Positions 21,708 through 36,558 of a stretch of DNA of 64,000 bases are shown here, piece after piece (within the stretch, counting starts at the first letter, position 1; every line of letters begins with the position of its first letter). This DNA is from Prosthecobacter debontii (GTDB lineage: Bacteria; Verrucomicrobiota; Verrucomicrobiia; Chthoniobacterales; Chthoniobacteraceae), in the NCBI GenBank assembly GCA_945861385.1, contig CAMAUI010000006.1, forward strand, positions 1 through 64,000, read 5' to 3'. The notes below the pieces were generated by a model. That model worked only from the letters and a program-made list of their open reading frames with translations, was not told the DNA's origin and did not search any database. A program made the position numbers and the translations under genes.

Positions 21708-22724
21708 TCACAGCAGCCGCACCCCGGTGCCATTCTCATCCGGGAAAACCGCCCTGCCTTTTTCCAGGCGAACGCCCGCTGCGATATCCTGCGCGATCAG
21801 CATCGCGCCATCCATGTCCGCATGGTCGAGGAGCGGCAGCAGTTGCGCGAGCGCGCTGATGCCGACCGAGCTTTCGTTCATGCAGCCGCCCATCACGCGC
21901 AGCCCGAGTTCGCGCGCCCGCGAGATCATGCGCCTCGCCGGGGTGAGCCCGCCAGCCTTGGTAAGCTTGATGTTGATGCCGTGAAAATATCCCGCGCATC
22001 GCCCGACATCCTCCTCCACGCGGCAGCTCTCGTCGGCAAACACGGGCAGCGCACACTCGCGGTGGACGCGCTGCATTCCGGCCCAGTCATCAGCGCGCAG
22101 CGGTTGCTCGATGAGTTCCACGCCCAGCCGCGCAAGCTCCGGCGCGAAGGCGATGGTCTGCTCCGCGCTCCACGCGGTGTTCGCATCAATGCGGAAGACT
22201 GCATCCGTATGCCTGCGCAGTTCCCGCACGATCGCGAGATCATCCGGGGTGCCGAGTTTGATTTTGTAAACCGGCCACCCGTCGAACTCGCGCATCTTCG
22301 CGAGCATCGTCTCCACCGCATCAATCCCGATCGTGTAATTGCTCGGCGGCAGGTCGCGCAATTCGAGCCCCCACAGCCGCCAAACCGGCGCGCCGCGCAG
22401 CCTGCCCCACAAATCGTGGGCCGCCTCATCGAGCGCGCAGAGTGCGAAGCGATTGCTCCCGAGCACCGCCACTATGCGCTCCCACAGGGCCGCGGGATCA
22501 TCGAGTGTCTCGCGCCCGATCACCGGGCGTGCCGCTTCGAGCGCAGCCCGCACCGCATCGGCCGCGGATTCCGCGTATGCGCGCGACGCCGCGGCCTCGC
22601 CGTAGCCGGACATCCCATCCTGCCGGAGTTCGACGAGCAGATTGTGCTGCACGGTCGTGGTGCCATGCGTGATGGTGAACGCATGCCGCATCGGGAGGCG
22701 AAGATCGCGGAGGTGGAGTTCCAT
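21708..22724 (-). CDS. L-Ala-D/L-Glu-type dipeptide epimerase (enolase superfamily)
   Basis: The protein has about 338 aa. The N-terminal capping domain (MELHLRDLRLPMRHAFTITHG) leads into a barrel with the KIKLG lysine motif (VYKIKLGTPDD), metal-binding acids in RIDANTAW, IEQPL and ADESC, and the second lysine in INIKLTKAGGL. These are the residues of muconate-lactonising-subgroup dipeptide epimerases used in peptidoglycan peptide recycling. The exact substrate is inferred. The ATG at 22724 is the conserved start. The open frame to 22961 overlaps the exoprotein gene and is not coding. About 145 bp of its 5' end plus upstream flank is duplicated at 31571-31775. Confidence 0.88.
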   Translation of the reverse strand: MELHLRDLRLPMRHAFTITHGTTTVQHNLLVELRQDGMSGYGEAAASRAYAESAADAVRAALEAARPVIGRETLDDPAALWERIVAVLGSNRFALCALDEAAHDLWGRLRGAPVWRLWGLELRDLPPSNYTIGIDAVETMLAKMREFDGWPVYKIKLGTPDDLAIVRELRRHTDAVFRIDANTAWSAEQTIAFAPELARLGVELIEQPLRADDWAGMQRVHRECALPVFADESCRVEEDVGRCAGYFHGINIKLTKAGGLTPARRMISRARELGLRVMGGCMNESSVGISALAQLLPLLDHADMDGAMLIAQDIAAGVRLEKGRAVFPDENGTGVRLL

Positions 22725-22784
22725 GCCCAGCCCACGAAATGCGGAGCGGCCCGCTGTTGGCGAGAACCAATGTCGCCAGCCACC
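22579..22784. repeat. Parental copy of the duplicated epimerase 5' region
   Basis: From GCGCGCGACGCCGCGG at 22579 to about 22784, the sequence matches 31571-31775 with scattered substitutions, through the start codon and about 55 bp of upstream DNA. This copy belongs to the intact epimerase gene. The ends are read by eye and are approximate. Confidence 0.8.
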
Positions 22785-22834
22785 TGCCAGCCTGCGAGGC
22801 GTGCCCGGACGTCGAACCCCACGGCTCCTTTTTC

Positions 22835-25744
22835 TCAACGCTCCGCTGGTATTTTTGACGGTGCCGGGATGGCGGTGGCTGCTTCGTCGGGGGCGCTCGC
22901 GACACCGCCGCGGCCCACGAGGAGGAAGGTGCTCACGTCGCCCTCGAGACGCATGGCGCATCGCTCGGCGAGGTTGGTTTTCGGGCTGACGAAGGAGCTG
23001 CCGAGCGTGAGCAGGGCGCCGCTGATGTCGCCTTGCAGTGTCTCGATTCGGACGGTGCCCTGGACGCTGGCTTCGCTGGAGGCGGTGACGGCGCTGTCGC
23101 TGGCGAGGAAAACGCCGGTGATGATGTTGATGTTGCCGCCCCTGCCGAGGATGGCGTTCGCGGAGATGCGGCTGTCCTCGAGGAGGACGAATTGCGGGTC
23201 AATGAACACGTCGCCGCCGTTGAGGCCGGCCTCGGCGAGGACGGTCGCGAGCCGCAGCGAAATCGTCTCGGGGGCGATGAGCGCGATGCGCCCGGCGTTG
23301 CCCTGCGTGGCGCTGACGGTGATGCTGCTTCCGGTGATGAAAATGCCGCTGCCCGATGCAACCTCGACTGAGCCGGCGTCGCTGATGGCGGAGGTGCTGC
23401 TGATGAAGCTGCCGCTGTCGAGCGTGAGCGGGGCGTCCACGGCGACATCCACGCTGCCGGCGACGCCGGAACCGGTGGATGAAGCGACGATGAAGGCGCC
23501 GTTTTCCAATGCGAGATCATGGGCGCGGACGACGACGCTGCCGCCGCGGCCCGGCCCACTGGTGTCGGCGCGAATTCCAGCGCCATCGGCGAGGGTGAGG
23601 CTGCCAAATTCCGCGCGGATGCCGCCGCCTGCGCCGGGCTGGGTGAGGGACGTGCTCGTGGCCGTGATGCCGGTGAAATCGCCGCCGCCCTTCCCGGAAA
23701 AGAAGCCGTCGCGCGCAATGACGAGGACGTTGCCGCTCGCCCCGCCGCCATTGGTGGCCGCGGAGATGCGCCCGTCGTCGAACCCGCGGATGGTATCGGC
23801 AAAGACGCTGACATTGCCGCCACGCCCGCCGGGTCCTTCCTGCAAACTCTCGGAGACGATCCGGCTGTAAGCCGGGGCTTTGCCGGCTGCGCCGGGATAC
23901 ACGCCGGCGAGCGTGATGCTCCGTGCGTGAACGGTGACGTCGCCGCCCGGTTTGTCGCCTTCGGTGCTCGCGGAAACCTGCCCGCCACCGCGAATGTGGA
24001 TTTGATCCGCCGTCACGAAAACATCGCCGCCGGGGCCGGTGCCGATGCCCGTGGAGTCCGCGGCGATGCCGGTGTTGGTCGGCGAGGAGCGCCGGTCAAT
24101 TTCGATGACATCCGCGCGCACCGTGGTGTTGCCGCCCGCGCCCGCGCCGGTGGTCTTTGTGGAAATGAGGCCGCCATTTTCGATCCGCAGCAGCCCGGCG
24201 TTGACGTTCACGTTCCCTCCGCGCCCGGGACTGCCGCCTCCGCCTGCAATGCCGAGGCTGTCCGCCCGGATGCTCGTCTCGGTTTCCGCTCCGTTGGCGG
24301 AGATGAAAATGCTGTTCGCGGTGACATTGACGCTGCCGCCGGGCCCTTTGCCGCCGCTGTCGGCGGAGATGGAGCCGCCTTGTGTGATGCGGATCGCCTG
24401 CGCGTTCACTGTCACTCCCCTGGAGGAATCCGCCTCGCTGCTGAGGGCGCGGGAGCTGATCCCCGTGAAGCTCTCCGCCCCCGTTTTACTCCCGATGATT
24501 TCAATGGTGTCCGCCCTTGCATCCACATGACCGCCGTGGCCCAGGCCGTTCACGCCGGCTGCATCGAGCTGAACGTCGGAACGGATGCTCGACCGGTCGG
24601 TGATGACGAGCCTGCCAGCCCGGATGACGACATCGCCGGCGTGCGATGTGGGGGTGCTGCCGTCCACGAAGCTGCCCAGGTCACTGTTGGAATTGATGAC
24701 GATATTGCGCGCACTGGCATGGACTCGGCCCGCTGTGGTGGCGTTGTTGGTGGTGGTTTGAAAGCTGGCGTTTCCCTTGAGCACGAGGCTGTTCTTGAGC
24801 CGCAAGTTCATCGCCCCTCCCCGTTCGGTGCCTTTGGTCAGTGATTTCACCGTCGCATTCTTCGCAGTGAGCCTGCCTGCCCGGATGGTGACTGCGCCGC
24901 CCTTGCTTCCGCTGGCGTCAATCGTCGCGCGGTTCCCGTCGTCGAGGCCGTACATCGTCACATCGCCCATCTTCACCGGCTGCCTGCCGCGCATCGCGGA
25001 GCCATCGGGTTTCAGTTCGCCCTTCGATGCCGCGCTGGCGATGACGACGTCGCCGGCTTTCGTGACGATGGATACAGCCTGGCCGTTGGCTTCATCCACG
25101 CCGCCAAGAATAATCTTTCCGCCGATGGCGGAAAAGCCGCCCTTTACCGCCGGGTTGCCGGGTGTGCCGGATGTGCCGGTCGTCGTGGAGCCCTGAATGT
25201 GGATGGCCTGTGGCGCACTGAGGAATCCAAAGGCGCTGACGGGGGCGCTGGTCAGTTGATCCATTGCGGGGTTTGTGACATCGAAACGCCCGCCATCCTC
25301 CAGCTTCACATAATCCGCCGTGGTCACGGTGAACGCGCCTTTCACGTCAATTTCCGCGCTTTGCCCGAACATGACGCCCCTCGGGTTGATGAGGTAAAAA
25401 TTCGCGCCCGGGATGTCCGATTGGATTTTGCCGTTGATGATGGATTTTTCGCCGGTGACGCGGGCGAGGACGTTTGCGATGCCGGACGGGCCGGTGAAAG
25501 CGGCGGTTTCGCCGGCAGCGAGGTTCAGTTTTTCAAAACTGTGGAATAGATTCGCTCCCACCTGGCTGCTGCCGCCGAGTGTGTGCGGGAGCGAAAACTT
25601 TCCGCCGACTGCCTGGACGGTGCCGCCGCCCGGCAGCACCACTTCCGCGCGGGCGGAGAATGACGTGAGGATCAGACCGGCAAACAGGCAGTGATGCCAG
25701 CCCCGGTCAATGCCTGCGCCGCCTGCATGGCGGGATCGGGTCAT
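22835..25744 (-). CDS. Filamentous-haemagglutinin-like exoprotein with TPS domain
   Basis: The protein has 969 aa from the ATG at 25744, which overlaps the upstream gene's stop as ATGA. A Sec signal (CLFAGLILTSFSARA) precedes a TPS/haemagglutination-activity domain with NLFHSFEKLNL, FTGPSGIANVLARVTG and ANFYLINPRGVMFG. A long right-handed beta-helix made of irregular GG-x-V/I repeats follows to about residue 900. The end has a cyanobacterial-FHA-like motif (ERCAMRLEG, then FLLVGRGG). Such proteins are normally exported across the outer membrane by a TpsB/Omp85 partner, which is not encoded in this window. An adhesin or surface-matrix role is likely. Confidence 0.85.
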   Translation of the reverse strand: MTRSRHAGGAGIDRGWHHCLFAGLILTSFSARAEVVLPGGGTVQAVGGKFSLPHTLGGSSQVGANLFHSFEKLNLAAGETAAFTGPSGIANVLARVTGEKSIINGKIQSDIPGANFYLINPRGVMFGQSAEIDVKGAFTVTTADYVKLEDGGRFDVTNPAMDQLTSAPVSAFGFLSAPQAIHIQGSTTTGTSGTPGNPAVKGGFSAIGGKIILGGVDEANGQAVSIVTKAGDVVIASAASKGELKPDGSAMRGRQPVKMGDVTMYGLDDGNRATIDASGSKGGAVTIRAGRLTAKNATVKSLTKGTERGGAMNLRLKNSLVLKGNASFQTTTNNATTAGRVHASARNIVINSNSDLGSFVDGSTPTSHAGDVVIRAGRLVITDRSSIRSDVQLDAAGVNGLGHGGHVDARADTIEIIGSKTGAESFTGISSRALSSEADSSRGVTVNAQAIRITQGGSISADSGGKGPGGSVNVTANSIFISANGAETETSIRADSLGIAGGGGSPGRGGNVNVNAGLLRIENGGLISTKTTGAGAGGNTTVRADVIEIDRRSSPTNTGIAADSTGIGTGPGGDVFVTADQIHIRGGGQVSASTEGDKPGGDVTVHARSITLAGVYPGAAGKAPAYSRIVSESLQEGPGGRGGNVSVFADTIRGFDDGRISAATNGGGASGNVLVIARDGFFSGKGGGDFTGITATSTSLTQPGAGGGIRAEFGSLTLADGAGIRADTSGPGRGGSVVVRAHDLALENGAFIVASSTGSGVAGSVDVAVDAPLTLDSGSFISSTSAISDAGSVEVASGSGIFITGSSITVSATQGNAGRIALIAPETISLRLATVLAEAGLNGGDVFIDPQFVLLEDSRISANAILGRGGNINIITGVFLASDSAVTASSEASVQGTVRIETLQGDISGALLTLGSSFVSPKTNLAERCAMRLEGDVSTFLLVGRGGVASAPDEAATAIPAPSKIPAER

Positions 25745-28700
25745 ATCACTCGAAATTGGATGCCGACCGCAGTCTGCGGGAGGCTCGAAACCAAGACGGT
25801 GGAGCCGTTCACCTTGATGCTCTTGAAGGTGGCGCCTTGGAAACAATTGCCGGCCATGGCGACTTGGTTGGTGAGTACGATGGCGTCAATGTACGCCTTG
25901 CCCGCTGGCAGCGATGAAAGCACGCCGGCAGCCGCGACGTCGTCGGCGTTGCCCCAGATGTGGTCGGTGCCGGGGTCTATGCCCGCGGAGACAGTGGAGT
26001 TGGATATCACACCCGCGATGGTGACAGTTCCGATCCGTGCGTCGCGGTAGTAAGTGTCCTGATCCAGCGGATCGGGTGGCACTACGCTGTCAATCAGCCC
26101 ATCCGCACCGATGCTCACGCCGGCGAGGAACCTGGCGTTCGTGACAGTGCCAGCGGTGATTTTGATTTTGCCTATGCCGATATTGAGGTCGGCGTTGGTG
26201 ATGTCGTAAGCCGCGAAATCCGAATTGGTGACGGCGAGATTCGAGGTGATTTGCGCAAAGGACAAAGCCTGGAAGTACACGCCATCCACACCGATGCTGC
26301 CGGAATAATTGATCCCTGCCGTCATGGAGATGCCTGCTGCGGTGGTTCGCGCGAAGATGTCGTAGTTCTGGATGCCGCCGTGATCCTTCAATGAGGGCAC
26401 CGTGCTGGGGATTTTGATGAGGCCGATTGCCCCCTGCTTGGCGACGATGTTCTTGTGGTCGTTGTGGCCGTAGTCATCACCGTTCAAGTCCGGCACTCCG
26501 GGTGAAGTCTCGATGAGTGCCATCGTCACGCCATTGTTAATGAGGTCTCCGCCAACGGGGACGAGATCGTAATCCAGGTCGGACGGAAGCGAACTGCTGG
26601 GGGTCTTGCTGCCATCGAAACTGTGCGCGGAGATAGCGCCGATCGAATTGGCAAACACCGACGACTTGAAGGTTCCTTTCACTTTGATGCCCTTAATGTG
26701 CAGGGCCGCGTCGAGATGGATGTCCATGGTGCCCGTGACGGTGATGGTGCCGACGTTGCCGTTCACGATCACATGCTGGCCCGCCCAACTGCTGCCGGAG
26801 ACAGTCATGTTTCCCAAGTTGGCGTAGGTCACAGTACCCACTTCGTAACGATCCACCTCGAACGAGACCTGGCAAAGCCCCTTGCGCAGGCGGAAGCTAT
26901 CGATGCTCTGCGTGGTCTTGATAAGTCCGGGGCCGGCCCATGAGCGGACGACGACATCCCCAAGGCCGCCGCCGCCGCTCGGGGTGAGAGGATCGGTGCC
27001 CGTCACATCAATCGTCAGTCCGCCGGTGCCGAGGACGTCGCGGATGCGGATTTCCGGTTTGTTGTTGTAGGTGTCGAGGTAGGCGAGGCCCTTCCCTATT
27101 TCAAAGATCCCGTACTGGTTCACGTCGCTCAGGATGAGCTTCGTGACGCTGCCGAGGATTTCCACGTCGGGCAGCGCGTCGTTGACTCCATCACCGAGTT
27201 TCACTTTCCCGTTAAGCGTGATGGTGCCGAGCTGGCTGTCAGGATCGGAGCTGACGATGCGGTTCACCGTCGTGGTGCCGATTTTCGGGCCTTTCAAATA
27301 GAGGTCCACCGGCCCGGCGGTGCTGATGATCTCGATGGAATCAATCACCCGGCCACCGCCGCCGGTGCTGACATTGACGATGATATCGCCCGCGCCTTCA
27401 GCCCTGACAGTCGTCCCTCCCCCCGCGGAAAAGGTGACGCCGCTATTGAGCATCGTACCCACGGTGGTCACGGCCCCCCGGACGAGCGTGCCGATGCCGG
27501 CTTTCCGCAGGGTGCCGGGGCCGTCCACTGTGCCGGTGAGCGTGAGCGTGGTGGCGGCGTCCACATCCACGGTGCCGGTCGCGCTGTTGACGGTGAAGGT
27601 GCGCGCGGTGCTGAATGTCGCGGTGGTGTGGAGCCTGCCCGCGGTGCTGTCGAAGACGACGTCGTTCGCCGCGGTGCCGAGCGCGCCGTTCGCGCCGATG
27701 GCGAGGCGGCCGGTGAGGCTGATGCCGTCGGCGTCGGTGAAAGTATTCGCCGCGTTCGCAAGCGTGAACGGCGCGGTGCCCGCGACGACGAGGTCGCCGG
27801 TGCCGCTGAGCAGGCCGGTGTAATTGCCGCCGCTGACGGCAAGCGTGTTGCCCGCGAGCGCGATGCCGGCGGTGCCGCTGAGTGATGCGAATGTGAGGTC
27901 GCCACCCGCGGGATCAACCGTCGCATCGAGCGTCGCCGCTGCGCCGAAAACCAAGTTCGTGGCCACCGCGCGCGTGATGGGCGCGCTCACGGTGAGGGGG
28001 CCGCTGTTCTGGTCGCCGAAGACGAGCGCGCCCGCGGTCACTTGGTCCAACTCCGCATCCGTCAGCCCGAGCACGCCTGCGGAGTCCGCGCCGCCGAGAT
28101 TGATCAGCGTTCCGTTTGTCTGCTGTCGCAGGGTGACTGAGCTACTGCCGTTCGCCGACACGGGGCCGGCGAAATTCATGTTGTCTGCGATGAGCGTGAG
28201 ATTGCCGCCATTGGTCGCGGTCGAGATGCTCACCCCGGCGTCTTCTACCTGGATGCCGTTATTCGTCCCTCCGCCAGTCCCGCCGGTGCCCGTGACCGTC
28301 AGTGCGCCGCCGCCAGAGGTGATGATGCCTCCGCTGCCGCCCGCGAGGCTCACGCCGTAGTGGAAGCCCCCGGAGCCGGTCCCGCCCGTGCCCGTCACCG
28401 TCAGCGTGCCGGCTCCGCCTGCGGAGATGGTCCCATTCTGGTAGATCCCGACGCCGAAGGCCGCGAACGCCGCCCCGGTTCCACCGCCAATGCCTGTCAC
28501 GCTCACGTTGCCGCCGCTCGAATTGATCGTCCCGCCCACTTGCACATGAACGCCCGATGGGAACTGCCCGGCGGTCGAACCACTGCCCGTTCCCATCACC
28601 GTCACGGTCCCGGTCCCGCCCGCTGAGAGCAAGGCGCCCGCTCCATTCACATACACTCCGTAAGCGTTGTTGCCGGCCCCCGTGGACGCGGATGTGCCGG

Positions 28701-31338
28701 TGATCTGGACATTCGCGCCGCCCGAACTGATCGTCGAGCCGCTGCCGTCCACCGCTACGCCAAAATTAAATTCTCCCGTGGACGCCCCGCCCCCGCCCGT
28801 CACCGTCATCGTGCCCGTCGTCCCGCCGAGAATATCGCCACCGGTCCGCACATGCACGCCGACCTGAGTGCCGCCCGCATCACCCGCCCGGCCCGTCACC
28901 GAAACCACCCCCGTCCCCGTCGCCTGCACTAGCCCCGCGTTCACATCCACGCCGATGAAATTCCCCGCCGTCGTCCCCGCCGCATTCGCGGAAAGCGTCA
29001 GGTTTCCGTTTTGCACCACGAGGCTCGATCCGCTCGCGAACGTGATGTTGCGGCTGACATCGAAAGTCGCCGCGCCCGCGCCGCTGAGCGTCAGCGCGGC
29101 ACCCGCGCCGACGGTGATCGCATCCTCGTCACCCGCGCCCGCATCGTCACTGAGATTCACGTCGAGATTTTCGCCGGGCGCAAAAGTGAGGGGGCCGGTG
29201 AACTGCACAAGGTCATCGCCCGCGTCGCCATTGATGGTGAGCGATGCGCCAAACGCGGGATTCAGCGAGCTGACGGTGATCGAGTCCACACCCGCGCCGG
29301 CGTTCACCGTGAGCTGAGTGCCAGGCGCCGCGAATCTCGCAAGGTGCGGGTTTCCGCCGAAGTTGCCGTCGAGCCGCAGCCCGACGCCGGCGTCGTCCGC
29401 GAGGATGATCGCCTCATTTGCCGCCGGGTAGGTGAACGAACGCTCAAGGGCGATGAGCGTGTTCAGCGTCTCCTCGACGCCCGAGTAGCTGATGAGCGCG
29501 CCGTCAATGTCCACCACGCCGATGTCGTGCGTGGTGAAAGTGTGCGTCACATTCGCGAAGGCCACGCCGCCACCGCCCTGCTCGATCAGCAGCCGGTAGG
29601 CCACGCCGCCACCGCCCTGCTCGATCAGCAGCCGGTCAGCGGAGGGAGTCGCCGGGTTGCCGCCGGAGAAATCAATCCCGCCCGCCGGCACCGGGCTGCC
29701 GCCGCCGAAATCCACGACCAGCGTGTCCGACCCGCCGAGCGCGTCGAAAAACAGCGTGCCCGTGATATTCACGAGAGGCACTTCGACGGTGAACGCATCC
29801 ACCTGCGTCATCCCCGGCCCCGCGGCGATCCGGTGGGAGGGATCGAACACGCTCAGGATGCCGCCAGGCATGCGCTTGAGCGTGATCGTATCATCGCTCG
29901 CGCCGCCGTTCACATCGCGGATGACAAGATCGCCGCCGATGAGATTCGCCGACGTCTCAATGGCGGGCACGCCCGCCTGCATGAGGACGACATCGTTGCT
30001 CGCCGAGCCGCCCGCGTAGGTGATGTTGAAAGTGACACCGTTGATCGTCACCGGCGCGCCCTCCGAAAGACCGTTGAAAGTTCCCACCACCATGTCGTTC
30101 CCGCTGTTATCAACGAGGATGATCTGCTGCCCCGGATTGCTGGTGATCCCGCCCGTGGTCACGAGCGTCGCATCTCCCAGCGACACTGTGCCGGTGACGA
30201 AAAGCTGATCGTGCCCCGTACCCGGCGCCGCGTTGTTCACGCGGGCGTTGAAAGTGGAATTCGACCCGAGGCTGAGATCGCCAGTGCCCAGCTTGCCGAT
30301 TCCGTTCACGCCCACGCCAGGCCCGATGATGCCGTTCGAGAGCACGGTAACCGCCCCGGCGATATCGCCATTGCCCTCGATCGTCGCCCCGGCGCTCACA
30401 GTCACGGGGCTTGAGCCCGTGAAATCGCCGGTCAGCGTCAGGACGCCCGCATTCACCATCGTCGAGCCTCTGTGCGAGGACGCTCCGGCCAGCGTCAGAT
30501 TTCCATTCCCCGCCTTCACGAGATTCAAGTCCCCCGCCGTGTCCTGAAACCGCACGGCCGAAGTGCCATTTAAGTCGTTGTTGAGCGTCAGCGTCGCCGC
30601 CACACCATTGTTGAAATTCTCCACCGTGCCCGTCCCGATGACGGCCTTGAGCGTCTGCGCGAAGCCATTCATGTCCAGCGACCCCGCCGCCGCGAGGCTC
30701 ACCGTCAAGCCTGCCGCCAGCGTGTCATGCGCGCCCAGCCGCAGCACGCCGTTGCCGATGGTCGCCGCGCCCGTGAACGTATTCGCCCCGCTCAACGTCA
30801 GCACCGCCGTGCCATTCTTCGTGAACCCGGTGTTGCTCATCGCCCCGCCCACGACAAGCTCCGCACTCGTCACATCGAAAACGCTCGCCGCCAGAGTGAG
30901 ATCCACATCCACCGTCGAGGGCGATGTGCCCTGCTGCCGCACATCCACCCCCGGATTGTCGAGCAGGATGCTGTTTCCCGTGACGGTGTAATTGTTCGCC
31001 CCATTCGCGTTGAAAATCAGCGAATAGCTCGTCCCCGCCACCGTGTCGTTGTCCAGCACGCCAAAGCGCGCCGAAGTGTCGTCGAAAATCAGCGTGTCCC
31101 CATCCGCAGGTGCCGCCGCCGAGCCGGTGCCGTTATCAATCCAGTTCTGTGCAACGCTCCACGTACTGTTCAGCACGCCCTTCCACACCAGCGTCGCCGG
31201 GGCGATGCGCGCCTCGAGCAGCTCAATGCCGCACGCGTGCCGCTTGAAAATGCCCTGCCGCCAGCCTGTCGCCGGCGGGACTTTTCGCTTTTCCATGAAG
31301 TGCGGAGATTGTTGCTGGGATCCGGGATTTTGTTTCAT
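25741..31338 (-). CDS. Giant PATR-type beta-helix surface protein, paralogue 1
   Basis: The protein has 1865 aa from the ATG at 31338. The start is fixed by alignment with the paralogue at 36558 (both begin MKQNP). Residues 1-50 are basic, lack a hydrophobic signal and carry LLEARIAPA at 40-48. VWKGVLNSTWSVAQNW follows, typical of the first autotransporter-associated beta-strand repeat, with NTFTGAATIGNGVLRLG further on. The middle consists of Gly/Thr/Val beta-helix repeats. The last 600 residues are less repetitive and end ...IQFRVI. No barrel, PEP-CTERM or LPXTG signal is seen. The open frame upstream to 31728 is an epimerase gene fragment, not part of this protein. A surface structural or adhesive role is inferred. 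Confidence 0.8.
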   Translation of the reverse strand: MKQNPGSQQQSPHFMEKRKVPPATGWRQGIFKRHACGIELLEARIAPATLVWKGVLNSTWSVAQNWIDNGTGSAAAPADGDTLIFDDTSARFGVLDNDTVAGTSYSLIFNANGANNYTVTGNSILLDNPGVDVRQQGTSPSTVDVDLTLAASVFDVTSAELVVGGAMSNTGFTKNGTAVLTLSGANTFTGAATIGNGVLRLGAHDTLAAGLTVSLAAAGSLDMNGFAQTLKAVIGTGTVENFNNGVAATLTLNNDLNGTSAVRFQDTAGDLNLVKAGNGNLTLAGASSHRGSTMVNAGVLTLTGDFTGSSPVTVSAGATIEGNGDIAGAVTVLSNGIIGPGVGVNGIGKLGTGDLSLGSNSTFNARVNNAAPGTGHDQLFVTGTVSLGDATLVTTGGITSNPGQQIILVDNSGNDMVVGTFNGLSEGAPVTINGVTFNITYAGGSASNDVVLMQAGVPAIETSANLIGGDLVIRDVNGGASDDTITLKRMPGGILSVFDPSHRIAAGPGMTQVDAFTVEVPLVNITGTLFFDALGGSDTLVVDFGGGSPVPAGGIDFSGGNPATPSADRLLIEQGGGGVAYRLLIEQGGGGVAFANVTHTFTTHDIGVVDIDGALISYSGVEETLNTLIALERSFTYPAANEAIILADDAGVGLRLDGNFGGNPHLARFAAPGTQLTVNAGAGVDSITVSSLNPAFGASLTINGDAGDDLVQFTGPLTFAPGENLDVNLSDDAGAGDEDAITVGAGAALTLSGAGAATFDVSRNITFASGSSLVVQNGNLTLSANAAGTTAGNFIGVDVNAGLVQATGTGVVSVTGRAGDAGGTQVGVHVRTGGDILGGTTGTMTVTGGGGASTGEFNFGVAVDGSGSTISSGGANVQITGTSASTGAGNNAYGVYVNGAGALLSAGGTGTVTVMGTGSGSTAGQFPSGVHVQVGGTINSSGGNVSVTGIGGGTGAAFAAFGVGIYQNGTISAGGAGTLTVTGTGGTGSGGFHYGVSLAGGSGGIITSGGGALTVTGTGGTGGGTNNGIQVEDAGVSISTATNGGNLTLIADNMNFAGPVSANGSSSVTLRQQTNGTLINLGGADSAGVLGLTDAELDQVTAGALVFGDQNSGPLTVSAPITRAVATNLVFGAAATLDATVDPAGGDLTFASLSGTAGIALAGNTLAVSGGNYTGLLSGTGDLVVAGTAPFTLANAANTFTDADGISLTGRLAIGANGALGTAANDVVFDSTAGRLHTTATFSTARTFTVNSATGTVDVDAATTLTLTGTVDGPGTLRKAGIGTLVRGAVTTVGTMLNSGVTFSAGGGTTVRAEGAGDIIVNVSTGGGGRVIDSIEIISTAGPVDLYLKGPKIGTTTVNRIVSSDPDSQLGTITLNGKVKLGDGVNDALPDVEILGSVTKLILSDVNQYGIFEIGKGLAYLDTYNNKPEIRIRDVLGTGGLTIDVTGTDPLTPSGGGGLGDVVVRSWAGPGLIKTTQSIDSFRLRKGLCQVSFEVDRYEVGTVTYANLGNMTVSGSSWAGQHVIVNGNVGTITVTGTMDIHLDAALHIKGIKVKGTFKSSVFANSIGAISAHSFDGSKTPSSSLPSDLDYDLVPVGGDLINNGVTMALIETSPGVPDLNGDDYGHNDHKNIVAKQGAIGLIKIPSTVPSLKDHGGIQNYDIFARTTAAGISMTAGINYSGSIGVDGVYFQALSFAQITSNLAVTNSDFAAYDITNADLNIGIGKIKITAGTVTNARFLAGVSIGADGLIDSVVPPDPLDQDTYYRDARIGTVTIAGVISNSTVSAGIDPGTDHIWGNADDVAAAGVLSSLPAGKAYIDAIVLTNQVAMAGNCFQGATFKSIKVNGSTVLVSSLPQTAVGIQFRVI
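28230..28900 (-). repeat. Gly-rich beta-helix repeat block in paralogue 1
   Basis: Units of roughly 40-45 residues follow the pattern GV-V---G-I-SGG-G--TVTGTGG. About six are seen, for example GVHVRTGGDILGGTTG, GVYVNGAGALLSAGG and GVHVQVGGTINSSGG. They are diverged at DNA level. A similar block is present in paralogue 2. Confidence 0.65.
29561..29638 (-). repeat. 39-bp tandem duplication in paralogue 1
   Basis: A 39-bp unit beginning GCCACGCCGCCACCGCCCTG is repeated back to back (29561-29599 and 29600-29638), with only the last bases different. It adds 13 residues in frame, so RLLIEQGGGGVA is read twice. It appears to be a recent slippage or duplication event. Confidence 0.85.
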
Positions 31339-31488
31339 GGCGTAAATGTTGGTTGGGAATTCGATTTTGCGGAGCACTCGGAAATTGCGAAGGAATGCCT
31401 GTACTCGGCGGTGGGTTTTCCGCACTTGTTCAGGGTCTTCTTTTGGCAACGCCTGCCAAGCTACCCCCGGATGCACCGCTGGCAACCA

Positions 31489-31494
31489 ATTATA
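31489..31494 (-). promoter_or_regulatory. Possible -10 element upstream of PATR paralogue 1
   Basis: On the minus strand the bases read TATAAT followed by TGGTTGCCAGCGG, about 150 bp before the ATG at 31338. The homologous site before paralogue 2 reads AGTAAT followed by TGATTGCCAGCGG. The conserved context supports a promoter, but no good -35 is visible. Confidence 0.35.
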
Positions 31495-31542
31495 CATTTT
31501 TAACAGCCCCGCCGCCTGCGCGGGCATCGTCGCGCCTTTCCC

Positions 31543-31568
31543 GCAAGCTGGCAGCTTGCGCCACACAC
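31543..31568. repeat. REP-like palindromic repeat, copy 2
   Basis: GCAAGCT-GGC-AGCTTGC forms a perfect 7-bp stem with 3-nt loop, followed by GCCACACACA. It lies immediately next to the end of the duplicated epimerase fragment, which begins at 31571. It is therefore a likely recombination junction. Confidence 0.65.
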
Positions 31569-31570
31569 AG

Positions 31571-31716
31571 GCGCGCGACGCCGCGGCCTCTCCGTAGCCG
31601 GACATTCCATCCTGCCGGAGTTCGACGAACAGGTTGTGCTGCACGGTCGTGGTTCCATGCGTGATGGTGAACGCATGCCGCATCGGGAGGCGGAGATCGC
31701 GGTGGTGGAGTTCCAT
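31571..31716 (-). pseudogene. Truncated 5' fragment of the dipeptide epimerase gene
   Basis: Read from the ATG at 31716, the frame gives MELHHRDLRLPMRHAFTITH and continues through VELRQDGMSGYGEAAASRA. It is nearly identical to the first 48 residues of the intact epimerase at 22724. It stops matching at 31571, three bases from a REP-like palindrome. About 55-60 bp of upstream DNA (31717-31775) is also duplicated. The frame happens to stay open into the giant gene, but nothing suggests a functional fusion. Confidence 0.85.
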
Positions 31717-31788
31717 GCCCTGCCGCACAAAATGCGGGCCGGCCCATGCTTGGCGAGAAGCAATATCCCGGTGGAACCGGCGCGAGCC

Positions 31789-34700
31789 TCAGACGATGCG
31801 GAAGCGAATATCGTCAGCGGTTCCTGTCTGCCCGGTTGCGACATCCTTCGGGAACCCCGCGAGCAGGATGGCGAGGGCATCAACCTTGATTCCCTTGAAG
31901 CTGGCGGCCTGGATGGTGTTTGAAACGGGATCGTTGGTGGTTTCGCCAAGGACGGTGGCGAGCGCGATGGCATCAATGACTTTGAGCGGCAGGATGGGGA
32001 TCACGCCAGTGAGGGCGGCAATATCGTCTGCATTTCCCCAGATGAGATCAGTGCCGGGCGTGAAGCCGGCCGAGATGACCGTCTGTGCCATCGCGCCCTT
32101 GATTGTGATTCTGCCGATGGTAGCGGCGAGCGTGTAGGTATCGGCGACCGCACCAGCGAGCACGCCATCGCCGCCGAGATTCACGCCGGAGAGGAATTTC
32201 GCGTTCGTCGCTCCGGAGAAGTTGATTTTGTCGCCGATGGAAATCTTGCCGATGCGATCCCGTGCAGCGAAGACCGAGTCCACGATGGGCAGGTTGGACG
32301 TGATGGATAGGATCTGGGCGGCATCGAAGGTAACATCGTCAACGCCGGGTCCGGACAGCGCCTTCACAGCGATGCCACCCGCAAGCGTTGCCGCGTAGAT
32401 GTCGTAGTGGGCGATGCCACCGGATTTAGTTTTCAACGTGCCCAGAGATCCGTTCAGGGCGACGATGTTGTGGCGGTTTTCACTCCCGTAGTCGCCGGCA
32501 TCCGTGGGCTTGGTTCCATTGAACAGAAAGGCGGTGATCGAGCCGATGGACTGCGCGACAAGCGACCCCTTGAACTCGCCCTTTACATTCACATTCTTGA
32601 TGGAAGCCGCCGAGGTGATGTTGCCGAGGAAGTCGCTGCCGACGGAGATCGTGCCGACTTCCGTCGCGTCCGGTTTTGTAAATGTGGCCGTTCCCGCGAA
32701 GGTGCCGGTCTTGACGGTGAACTTGGTGAAGCTGCCGGCGGTGAAGGTCGCGCCCGCGAGAAAGCCCACTGCGCTGAACGACCCGACGTTGCCTTCGATC
32801 TCGTTGCCACTGCTGCCCCATGAGCCATTTTGGATCACCATTTTTCCGACATTCGCGGTGGTGAGTTCGCCCCTGTGATCAGCATCCACCTCGAAGACCA
32901 CGTTGCAGTCTCCCGTGCGAAGCGTGAAACTCCCGATGCCCTGCGTGGTGCGGATGGTGCCTGCGCCAATCCAACTGGAGATGACGACCTTGCCGAGTCC
33001 GCCGCCGCCGGTTCCAGCAGGCTGCCCGTCGCCTGTCACATCAATGATCACACCCGGACCTGTGATGGACTTGATCACGACATCGGGGTGGTTGTTGTAA
33101 GTATCCGGTGTGGTTTCGTCGCCAAGGTTGTCGTAGGTGAGCCCGTAGCCGAGGCGGATGATCGTATTCGGCATGACCGTATCCACGGTGAGTTTGCCGA
33201 TCTTCCCAGCGATGTTGATATCGGGCACGTCGTCAGCCACTCCGTCCCCGAGGATCACGCCCTTTCTCAATGTGATCGAAGCGATCTCCGGCTCCGGGTC
33301 CGTGCTGGTGATGCTCTCAACGACCAGGGTTGCACCGGCGGTTGTGGGGCCTTTGATCTCGATCTCCGTGGCCGCGGTGGTGCCGGTCAATGCGATCTCC
33401 TCGATCTTTTTGCCACCCAGGCCGTCGGAGACGATCGTGATGACAGCGCTGCCCTCGCCCTCGAGTGCGAATTTTGCGGCACCCACGGCGACCGGGCCGG
33501 TCTCCGTATTGACCACGGTTGCTCCGGTAAAATTCTCGCCAAAAGCGAGGCTGCCAGCGCCGGTCTGCGTGATCACGCCGGTGCCGTCCACGGTGCCAGT
33601 CAATTTCAAAGTGCCTGCGGCGATGTCTATGTTCGTATCCACCGTGCGGGTGAAATGCCGCGTGGTGATGAAGCCGTTGGTAACCGCGAGATTTCCACCG
33701 CTGAAGACGAGGCTGTTGCCGAGGTCACCGAGCATTCCATTCGAGGCCGCTGTGACACCGGGGAATCCAGCGTCCAAACCGATCTTCAGTATGCCAGCCT
33801 CGACGGTGATGGCGCTGGCACTGCCGAAAGTGTTAAGGCGACTGCCGAGTGTGAGGGTGTTGGCTGAGATTTTTGTGAAGGTGCCCGCTCCGCTCACGAC
33901 ACCCGCGAATATGATACCACCACCTTCGGTATTGATGGGCGGGCGAACGATGCCTGGTGCTCGGACATCACGTCCCGCGAATATGATACCACCACCTTCG
34001 GTATTGATGGTGTTGTTCCCGATGAGTGTGAGGCTGCCAGTGAAAATGCCATCCCCTCCCCCACCGGACCTCAGCACGAGCGCACCGGGAATCGTAAGCC
34101 CCCCAAACACCACGGATTCGCCCGCACCACCGCGAAAGGTGATTGCATTGGACATGGTCACTGCCTGGCCCTCGATGGTATCCACCCAGAGTGCTGCACC
34201 AGGAGCGATGTCAATCGGGCCCGTTCCAAAGCCGCCGGATGCGAAGTTGACAATCGCACCTTCGCTTACGGAAACCCCGGCGATAGTGACGAGCGGCGAG
34301 GGATCATTTCCGTGGCTCAGGATTCCCGGCCCGGTCTTGGTGAGGGTGCGGCCAGGGCCGATGAGATTCCCAGTCCAAAAGACACTCGTATTGGCGCCAA
34401 CTTGAACGGTGGAATTGGCGTTGAGAGTGACGTCTCCCCCCGATTCAGAGCCGCCAGTATTGTAAAAAATGCTCCCTCCGTTCAGGACAAGCGGGGAAAC
34501 CGGCAGGGAACCGGATGCCGCCACCTCGATCGTGCCCGCGCCGATGGTGGTCGTGCCTCCGTAGCTATTCGAAGCCGAGAGAATGAGCGTGCCGACACCC
34601 AGCTTCGTCAAACTGTCTGCACTCAGCGGGTCACTTTGCGTGATCAAGCCGGCGCTCTCCACGGTGAGCAAATTATTGATCGAAATCGGGCCGAGATTAA

Positions 34701-36558
34701 AACCGCTGTCGTCGCGCAGGGAAACGGAATTTGCGGCTTCTACGGTGACGGTTTCGAAGGCATTCCCCGCATTCGTGAGGGTCACATTCCCCATGGTCTC
34801 CTGGGAAGGAAGGATCGAGAGCGTTCCGGAAACAGTCAGCACGCCACCGAGAGCGACAATGTTCCCGCTGTGTATTGTCAGGTTTTTGCCCACCGCCAGG
34901 GCAATGCCTCCTAAGCCGCTGACATCGCCCTCACTGTTGAGCGAGAACTGGCTGCCGTGTGTGATCTCCGCACTCACCGTGAGGGAGCCGGTGTTGTTGC
35001 CGCCGATTTGCAATATACCGGCAGTCACTTGATCCAACTCGGCATCCGTCAGGCCCAATGTAAGTGGATCCCCGCTCAACACATCCGCTCCCCCGAGATC
35101 GATCAGCGTGCCCGGAGTGCGGGTTGCAATGGTCGTTTGACCGGGGCCGGAGCTGATGCTCCCGCTGGGAATGTCGAGGCTGTCGGCAGTAATGATAATA
35201 CCGGCGCCGCCACCCGAGGAAATCGTCCCGCCACTCTCGATTCGCACCGCGAAGTTGTCAGCAGTGGCGATACCGGTGACACTGACAGAGCCGCCACCCG
35301 ATGTGATACTGCCACCGTTGATGACATCCACGCCGAGATTGGCCGTTCCAGCGCCCGCGGTGCCCGTCACCGTTACCGAGCCTGTCCCGCCGGATGTCAC
35401 CACGCTCGTGTCGCTCACATAAAAACCATAGCATCCGTTGCCTGATGCGGTGCCATCCACCGTGACCGCACCATTTCCCCCCGAGGTGATCACGCTGTTG
35501 ATGGCCACATACACGCCGATGGAACTGTCGTCGTTCCCAATGCCAGTCACCGTCACCGCACCGTCCCCGCCCGAGGTGATCAGCCCATCGCTAATCACCG
35601 TCACCCCATAGCCACCGATGCCGGTCACATCCACATTTCCACCGCCCGATGTGACCGAGGATCCCACCTCATTCACGATCACTCCGAAGTTGATGGCGTT
35701 CATATTCGGAACACCGCCAGTCCCCTGAATCGTCACGCTGCCAGTCGTCCCGCCGATGATATCTCCGCCGAAAGCCACTTGAACGCCATTCTGAGCGACC
35801 GCGGTGCCATCACCTCCTCTGCCCGAGACCGAAATACTTCCCGCACCCGTGATTTGGATGAGCCCGTTATTAAGGAAGACACCCGAAAAGTCCCCGCTCG
35901 TCGGTATGGCTTGTAAATTGGCGCTCAAGTCCAGATTACCATCCACGGTCGTTAGGCTCGATCCGCCAACGAGCACGATGTTGCGCGCAGTCGTCAGCGA
36001 GATCGCGCCGGTGCCGGTGGCGGAAAGATCGGCAATGGCGCTGGCGAGGCTGATCGTGCCTGTCGCCGTCGTGCTCAGCGTCTTGTCGGTCGCGAGCGCG
36101 ATGCTGTTGTTGAAAGTGACGTCGCCGCTCGTGAGCGTGGTGTCGCCGGACAGCGTGAGATCGCTGCTGAACGCGAGCGTGTCCGCGCCGGTCCCGGTAT
36201 TCACCGTGAGATTTGCCGTCAGCTCTGAAAGTGCGAGGAAGACATCGTTCGCTCCATTTTGCGTGAAGCCACCGCCGGCCGTGATCCCGTTGCTCGCATC
36301 GGTAAAATGCAGGTTTACGCCGATGATCGAAACAGTGAGCGACTCGATCTCCCCAGGTCCACCTTGGTCTCCCAGAATCGTGACACTTCCGGTCTCATCC
36401 AGCATCGCCAGCGAGGCCGGGGCGATGCGGCTTTCGAGCACTTCGATGCCGGACGTGCGCCGGTTGAAGTTGCGATGCCACCTGCCAGTTATCGCCGGGA
36501 CTTTTCGTGCTACCAGAGGGCGAAGGGATTGTTGATGGGGCGCGGGATTCTGTTTCAT
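31789..36558 (-). CDS. Giant PATR-type beta-helix surface protein, paralogue 2
   Basis: The protein has 1589 aa. The N-terminus aligns with paralogue 1 over 50 residues (MKQNPAPHQQS, then VLESRIAPA at exactly 40-48) and has no hydrophobic signal peptide. It contains beta-helix repeats, PATR-like strands (SYGGTTTIGAGTIEV) and a shared block LGLTDAELDQVTAG. The last 500 residues include GFTPGTDLIWGNADDIAA, matched in paralogue 1 by GIDPGTDHIWGNADDVAA, and end ...IRFRIV. No membrane barrel or sorting tail is seen. It is the first gene of the minus-strand exoprotein cluster. Surface localisation is inferred from composition and family. Confidence 0.8.
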   Translation of the reverse strand: MKQNPAPHQQSLRPLVARKVPAITGRWHRNFNRRTSGIEVLESRIAPASLAMLDETGSVTILGDQGGPGEIESLTVSIIGVNLHFTDASNGITAGGGFTQNGANDVFLALSELTANLTVNTGTGADTLAFSSDLTLSGDTTLTSGDVTFNNSIALATDKTLSTTATGTISLASAIADLSATGTGAISLTTARNIVLVGGSSLTTVDGNLDLSANLQAIPTSGDFSGVFLNNGLIQITGAGSISVSGRGGDGTAVAQNGVQVAFGGDIIGGTTGSVTIQGTGGVPNMNAINFGVIVNEVGSSVTSGGGNVDVTGIGGYGVTVISDGLITSGGDGAVTVTGIGNDDSSIGVYVAINSVITSGGNGAVTVDGTASGNGCYGFYVSDTSVVTSGGTGSVTVTGTAGAGTANLGVDVINGGSITSGGGSVSVTGIATADNFAVRIESGGTISSGGGAGIIITADSLDIPSGSISSGPGQTTIATRTPGTLIDLGGADVLSGDPLTLGLTDAELDQVTAGILQIGGNNTGSLTVSAEITHGSQFSLNSEGDVSGLGGIALAVGKNLTIHSGNIVALGGVLTVSGTLSILPSQETMGNVTLTNAGNAFETVTVEAANSVSLRDDSGFNLGPISINNLLTVESAGLITQSDPLSADSLTKLGVGTLILSASNSYGGTTTIGAGTIEVAASGSLPVSPLVLNGGSIFYNTGGSESGGDVTLNANSTVQVGANTSVFWTGNLIGPGRTLTKTGPGILSHGNDPSPLVTIAGVSVSEGAIVNFASGGFGTGPIDIAPGAALWVDTIEGQAVTMSNAITFRGGAGESVVFGGLTIPGALVLRSGGGGDGIFTGSLTLIGNNTINTEGGGIIFAGRDVRAPGIVRPPINTEGGGIIFAGVVSGAGTFTKISANTLTLGSRLNTFGSASAITVEAGILKIGLDAGFPGVTAASNGMLGDLGNSLVFSGGNLAVTNGFITTRHFTRTVDTNIDIAAGTLKLTGTVDGTGVITQTGAGSLAFGENFTGATVVNTETGPVAVGAAKFALEGEGSAVITIVSDGLGGKKIEEIALTGTTAATEIEIKGPTTAGATLVVESITSTDPEPEIASITLRKGVILGDGVADDVPDINIAGKIGKLTVDTVMPNTIIRLGYGLTYDNLGDETTPDTYNNHPDVVIKSITGPGVIIDVTGDGQPAGTGGGGLGKVVISSWIGAGTIRTTQGIGSFTLRTGDCNVVFEVDADHRGELTTANVGKMVIQNGSWGSSGNEIEGNVGSFSAVGFLAGATFTAGSFTKFTVKTGTFAGTATFTKPDATEVGTISVGSDFLGNITSAASIKNVNVKGEFKGSLVAQSIGSITAFLFNGTKPTDAGDYGSENRHNIVALNGSLGTLKTKSGGIAHYDIYAATLAGGIAVKALSGPGVDDVTFDAAQILSITSNLPIVDSVFAARDRIGKISIGDKINFSGATNAKFLSGVNLGGDGVLAGAVADTYTLAATIGRITIKGAMAQTVISAGFTPGTDLIWGNADDIAALTGVIPILPLKVIDAIALATVLGETTNDPVSNTIQAASFKGIKVDALAILLAGFPKDVATGQTGTADDIRFRIV
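33902..34010 (-). repeat. 72-bp in-frame duplication in paralogue 2
   Basis: A 37-bp string beginning CCCGCGAATATGATACCACC occurs at 33902 and again at 33974, exactly 72 bp apart. The duplication adds 24 residues in frame, so INTEGGGIIFAG is read twice. The bases between the copies do not repeat. Confidence 0.85.
35210..35850 (-). repeat. Gly-rich beta-helix repeat block in paralogue 2
   Basis: Five to six units of 30-45 residues follow the pattern G-V-----I-SGG-G-VTVTG, for example SDGLITSGGDGAVTVTGIG, NSVITSGGNGAVTVDGTA and TSVVTSGGTGSVTVTGTA. This corresponds to the block at 28230-28900 in paralogue 1. Confidence 0.65.

Follow-up and report, generated by a model that had tools for sequence, protein, structure and literature searches.

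A giant-protein and TPS exoprotein cluster in a Prosthecobacter debontii assembly as the likely exoprotein part of a dispersed two-partner secretion system

How do very large proteins with surface-type architecture leave a cell when no export channel is encoded beside them? This question is raised by a 64,000-nt stretch of a Prosthecobacter debontii assembly from a freshwater verrucomicrobial bacterium (the window, which lies on contig C6 of genome G000), carrying on its minus strand, between 21708 and 36558, genes for two giant proteins with PATR repeats, an exoprotein with a two-partner secretion (TPS) domain, and an epimerase. We consider that the cluster likely represents the exoprotein part of a type Vb locus of CHAT, CHASE2-cyclase, DUF928, TpsA and TpsB genes, which is dispersed in this genome and augmented by the giants as in sister species. 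Our confidence is higher for the pairing of the TPS protein with a TpsB than for the route taken by the giants. Statements about the whole genome rest on family, protein and pattern searches of it.

The TPS exoprotein and its candidate channel

The TPS-domain exoprotein is of the TpsA type (22835-25744, 969 aa; like all genes, domains and motifs located below, on the minus strand) and carries an N-terminal TPS secretion domain at 25013-25570 (PF05860, 1e-25, 91.5 bits; adhes_NPXG, 2.5e-16). Its N-terminus has a putative Sec-like signal, judged by hydropathy (hydrophobic core CLFAGLILTSF, mean hydropathy 2.17). At the other end lies a conserved tail (22835-22990, RCAMRLxGDxSTFLxVGRGG). A C-terminal tail with SxFxVxGRGG was common to the TPS proteins of Verrucomicrobiota loci, and those of cyanobacteria had a similar G(R/K)GGLP-type motif near the C-terminus. 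In a tree built from 31 TPS domains, the window protein grouped with TPS proteins of such loci, cyanobacterial ones among them (support 100/100), and apart from the other TPS proteins of the family; the tool cautions that the deep joins bring long branches together. A second TPS gene in the same genome, on contig C42, encodes a protein 53% identical to that of the window.

A preliminary description of the cluster had seen neither a TpsB nor a barrel in the stretch and proposed to look for TpsB and Omp85 genes elsewhere in the genome. No TpsB, Omp85 or barrel was found within the 64-kb window, and the genome-wide searches matched contigs C65, C28 and C40 only, with ShlB-type TpsB genes on C65 and C28 and an Omp85/BamA-like gene on C40. 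The C65 protein (631 aa; POTRA_2 2.5e-20, ShlB 8.6e-16) is of the ShlB/FhaC type, and its gene lies directly downstream of a third giant-family gene. Because sister species put this TpsB class beside the same genes, we assign the C65 TpsB to the same system as the window TPS protein. The C28 TpsB is disfavored as the partner: it belongs to a different TpsB class that is paired family-wide with a TPS protein of ~3,900 aa, and in the TPS tree the window protein belongs to the other clade. Positions 1-11839 of L040, on C28, contain a second, family-wide TPS system in its own right, which pairs a class-A TpsB with the TPS protein of ~3,900 aa. Between these two lie genes that encode a protein of 225 aa, a Porin_5 protein, a TonB-like protein and a MotA/ExbB protein carrying a lectin-like domain, a gene content that suggests a two-partner system tied to TonB-type energy supply.

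Sister-species loci held CHAT, CHASE2 with a nucleotide cyclase, DUF928, a giant, TPS and TpsB together in G032 (L046/L200), G031 (L047/L202) and G033 (L043/L199). The same locus was split across two contigs in G029 (L042, L149) and partial in G030 (L057). The five-gene core of CHAT, CHASE2-cyclase, DUF928, TPS and TpsB, without a giant, was present in another genus of the family (L204), and partial or rearranged versions were present in other Verrucomicrobiota (L207-L210). Several of the metagenome assemblies behind L200-L212 are titled Akkermansia muciniphila or Prosthecobacter debontii; these names may disagree with how the genes seen are related and are possibly misassigned. The five genes were not at one locus in the window's own genome and are spread over C6, C65 and C101 (and C42). 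Since the CHAT-CHASE2-DUF928 trio (PF12770; PF05226+PF00211; PF06051) is on C101 and the second TPS gene on C42, the system in this genome is, as judged from gene content, complete but dispersed.

The TPS protein would be carried across the inner membrane by Sec and would then leave through the C65 TpsB in the outer membrane, most likely to serve as an adhesin or coat filament. By analogy with their families, the CHASE2-cyclase and the protease-like CHAT protein are the probable sensing and regulatory or processing components of the system, and suggest regulation by proteolysis. The unrecognized export route suggested in the preliminary description is not supported for the TPS protein, since a ShlB/FhaC-type TpsB of the matching class is encoded on C65. 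The suggestion may hold in part for the giants.

The giants and their N-terminal tag

Giant 1 (31789-36558, 1589 aa) and giant 2 (25741-31338, 1865 aa from its ATG) are PATR beta-solenoid-type proteins, with PATR above the Pfam cut-off in both. The longest open reading frame of giant 2 is 1995 aa, extending back into an epimerase fragment described below. The giants are paralogues: BLASTP aligned them at 302 bits (E 1e-86) with 47% identity over a common C-terminal region of ~550 aa (31789-33441 in giant 1, 25741-27381 in giant 2), their first 60 residues are alike, and they are sisters in the giant-family tree (support 99/98). BLASTP, Pfam and coordinates thus agree with the initial account of two paralogous giants and a TPS exoprotein on one strand. 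The 4-bp ATGA stop-start overlap of giant 2 and the TPS gene that it reported, with the epimerase gene next, is seen at 25741-25744. A promoter scan between giant 1 and giant 2 found none.

Neither models nor domain searches gave the giants a canonical export feature. AlphaFold predicted the C-terminal region of giant 1 (pLDDT 72, moderate) and a short giant of 762 aa (pLDDT 74) as all-beta with a solenoid-like strand pattern and no barrel, the end of the giant 1 region being of low confidence. A PDB fold search with the models returned nothing significant (best E 0.12-0.15); the weak, non-significant resemblances were to beta-helix folds, autotransporter passengers and TpsA secretion domains. 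At Pfam level the giants had no match to PF05860 and no barrel at the C-terminus, and NCBIfam gave no match to a type IX C-terminal sorting domain or PEP-CTERM signal. A hydropathy scan found no Sec-like hydrophobic stretch at their N-terminus, where the maximum 11-residue hydropathy was ~0.8-1.0 vs ~2.2 for the TPS and TpsB signals. Both giants contain exact in-frame repeats as signs of recent expansion: a 39-nt tandem repeat in giant 2 (29559-29636) and a 37-nt repeat spaced 72 nt in giant 1 (33902-34010).

The giant family had any match in 12/213 genomes of the order, and long intact giant reading frames occur in the genus. Full-length giants and the type-B TpsB (the C65 class) occupy the same 6/10 genus genomes (Fisher p = 0.005, uncorrected for kinship), and full-length giants were scarce elsewhere in the order. 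Three other family genomes (G004, G013 and G015) have a type-B TpsB, and full-length giants were not found in them, so the giants are an addition to the core locus.

The N-terminus of each giant consists of a basic stretch followed by the motif IEx-LE-x-RIAPA, which reads LESRIAPA in giant 1 (36416-36438) and LEARIAPA in giant 2 (31196-31218), in N-terminal position and with no hydrophobic core. The core pattern LE.RIAP had 16 sites in this genome vs 0 for a reversed-pattern control, 10-28 sites in ten further family genomes, and zero to nine in the remainder. Outside the family, LE.RIAPA had ≤2 sites per genome among 288 genomes of the phylum. LE-x-RIAPA is a recurrent tag in this bacterial family only, near chance level in the other families of the phylum. 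Nearly all copies in the sampled loci lie within ~50 residues of a plausible start codon. Besides the giants, some dozen large, unrelated proteins of this genome carry the tag, a diverse set that includes Calx-beta (3238 aa), FG-GAP, cyclophilin-type, metallopeptidase-like and beta-solenoid types. The gene for the Calx-beta protein, which has 18 such domains (positions 8146-17862 of L049, on contig C1), adjoins a gene for a putative beta-barrel (BBP2_2, under the cut-off) and genes that resemble those for polysaccharide export.

We infer that LE-x-RIAPA may be an export or sorting signal. Because the tag is on diverse proteins, and because G001 has no ShlB match despite its 18 LE.RIAP sites, the giants are probably exported independently of TpsB, along a route that the tag defines. 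They would be co-expressed with the TPS protein, giant 2 by translational coupling, would take an export route of their own for which the N-terminal tag is the signal, and would act at the cell surface. They are probably solenoids of the cell surface, produced along with the TPS protein. More tentatively, LE-x-RIAPA may be a hitherto undescribed, lineage-restricted N-terminal sorting tag by which dedicated family machinery exports large, unrelated surface proteins without a Sec signal, the tagged giants having been recruited in one genus as partners of a two-partner adhesin.

The giants could instead be additional TpsB substrates, with the C65 TpsB exporting both them and the TPS protein, perhaps as a complex, without a canonical TPS domain. 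Gene order gives this idea some appeal, as giants are immediately upstream of TpsB on C65 (55 nt) and in G033 (95 nt), and directly beside the TPS gene in the window, G031, G032, G029 and G033. The co-occurrence of giants and type-B TpsB in the genus points the same way, as do the weak, non-significant fold matches to TpsA secretion domains and autotransporter passengers. We nevertheless regard shared export as unlikely, given that the giants have neither a Pfam-level TPS domain nor a Sec-like hydrophobic stretch and that their tag class is carried by many proteins unlinked to TpsB and is present in G001, where ShlB had no match. Far less probable is that giants, TPS protein and epimerase are chance neighbors with only their strand in common. 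Chance does account for the epimerase adjacency, and giants are also found alone (C88; G029 C130), but 9/12 giant copies, from six genomes, are at most one gene from TPS, TpsB or CHAT genes in several arrangements, and giant 2 and the TPS gene share the ATGA overlap. We likewise give very little credence to the giants being cytoplasmic or decaying remnants. The lack of a classical signal peptide and the ongoing rearrangement indicated by the exact in-frame internal repeats would fit such a fate; the long intact reading frames in the genus, the PATR, solenoid-type architecture, and the presence of the tag on Calx-beta, FG-GAP and metallopeptidase-like proteins, which are typically cell-surface proteins, argue against it.

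Some observations weigh against a dispersed type Vb system augmented by giants that follow their own tag-defined route, which we prefer. The giants on C88 and G029 C130 adjoin neither TPS nor TpsB. G001 has TPS proteins, so a divergent TpsB could have been missed there. The assemblies are draft metagenome assemblies, and "dispersed" is partly a contig-level statement; C6, C65 and C101 carry the system genes inside contigs, among unrelated neighbors. The surface-coat or adhesin system linking giants and TPS protein that the preliminary description envisaged gains support from the recurrence of giant-TPS or giant-TpsB adjacency in sister species.

The epimerase and the direct repeats

The fourth gene of the cluster encodes an MR_MLE-superfamily epimerase (21708-22724, 338 aa; MR_MLE in Pfam) for which the closest NCBIfam model was DgcA, with a score under its cut-off. 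We rejected it as a functional member of the system: a clear orthologue was found in only 1/9 other genus genomes (G025, 63%), with no giant nearby. Judged by this distribution, the epimerase is a bystander and a neighbor outside the system. A conserved chromosomal position was also rejected, as in relatives the genes around the neighboring lpxI-like gene are different ones and include no giants.

A second copy of the 5' end of the epimerase gene, comprising its first 51 codons and some upstream sequence, lies between the giants (31564-31724), at 92% identity in protein and 95% in DNA over 154 nt. This duplication had been overlooked in the preliminary description, the rest of whose observation of the cluster stands. 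The resulting direct repeats, 31564-31724 and 22572-22732, are 8,992 nt apart and bracket giant 2 and the TPS gene; over the first 50 codons the copies differ by 6 synonymous and 3 non-synonymous codon differences. It looks as though giant 2 and the TPS gene, as a pair, had been inserted or rearranged into a junction between giant 1 and the epimerase. No empty insertion site was found, the relatives being without this chromosomal arrangement. A single tandem duplication of giant and epimerase is disfavored, with the giants ≤47% identical and the epimerase fragment 95% identical in DNA. Because of this same difference the duplication of the giants looks older than the rearrangement, although the order of events is not proven.

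Significance and comparison with known systems

An apparent orphan exoprotein cluster becomes a testable system in which a partner channel for the TPS protein is named, and the puzzle narrows to the exit route of the barrel-less, signal-less giants. The tag provides a handle on that route, with 10-28 core sites in each of eleven family genomes (G000, G001, G002, G020, G023, G025, G029, G031-G033 and G039) and near-chance numbers in other families of the phylum. Since tagged and untagged genomes exist within one family, the untagged being G026, G028 and most of genera g3 and g8, a machinery that reads the tag could be sought by phyletic profile. Two-partner secretion is itself well known, and an annotated cyanobacterial plasmid already shows the five genes in association; what sets the present case apart is the addition of the giants and the restriction of the tag to one family. 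Our search of the open-access literature found no paper on CHAT, CHASE2 or DUF928 with two-partner secretion, the giants or the tag, and nothing bearing on the finding for LEPR-XLL, DUF928 or Chthoniobacter with two-partner secretion.

LEPR-XLL N-terminal domain proteins also have a short N-terminal motif starting with LE on large repetitive proteins. We treat this resemblance as a lead only; no NCBIfam model for a domain of this kind matched the giants (at E 0.1) or other tagged proteins (at E 1). The PATR repeats of the giants, in an all-beta, solenoid-like passenger, recall classical PATR autotransporters (type Va); unlike those, the giants have no C-terminal barrel by Pfam or structure prediction and no Sec-like signal. 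The cluster resembles two-partner secretion (type Vb: FhaB/FhaC, HMW1A/B) in its TPS-domain protein with a putative Sec-like signal and in the POTRA_2 plus ShlB barrel partner in the genome, which is adjacent in sister species. Unlike that model, the partner here is on another contig and the pair is accompanied by CHAT, CHASE2-cyclase, DUF928 and giants that have no TPS domain.

A further likeness is to cyanobacteria. On a Nostoc plasmid (L214), giant Calx-beta and pre-peptidase C-terminal proteins are encoded on either side of the ShlB and filamentous-haemagglutinin genes, and giant neighbors of TPS genes may thus recur in cyanobacteria. On the Pseudanabaena plasmid ABRG53f the gene order is different and LE-x-RIAPA giants are absent, but the same five families (ShlB, CHASE2, FHA-N, CHAT and DUF928) lie together in one stretch, with related TPS proteins. 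The association of CHAT, CHASE2 and DUF928 with two-partner secretion is common to cyanobacteria and Verrucomicrobiota.

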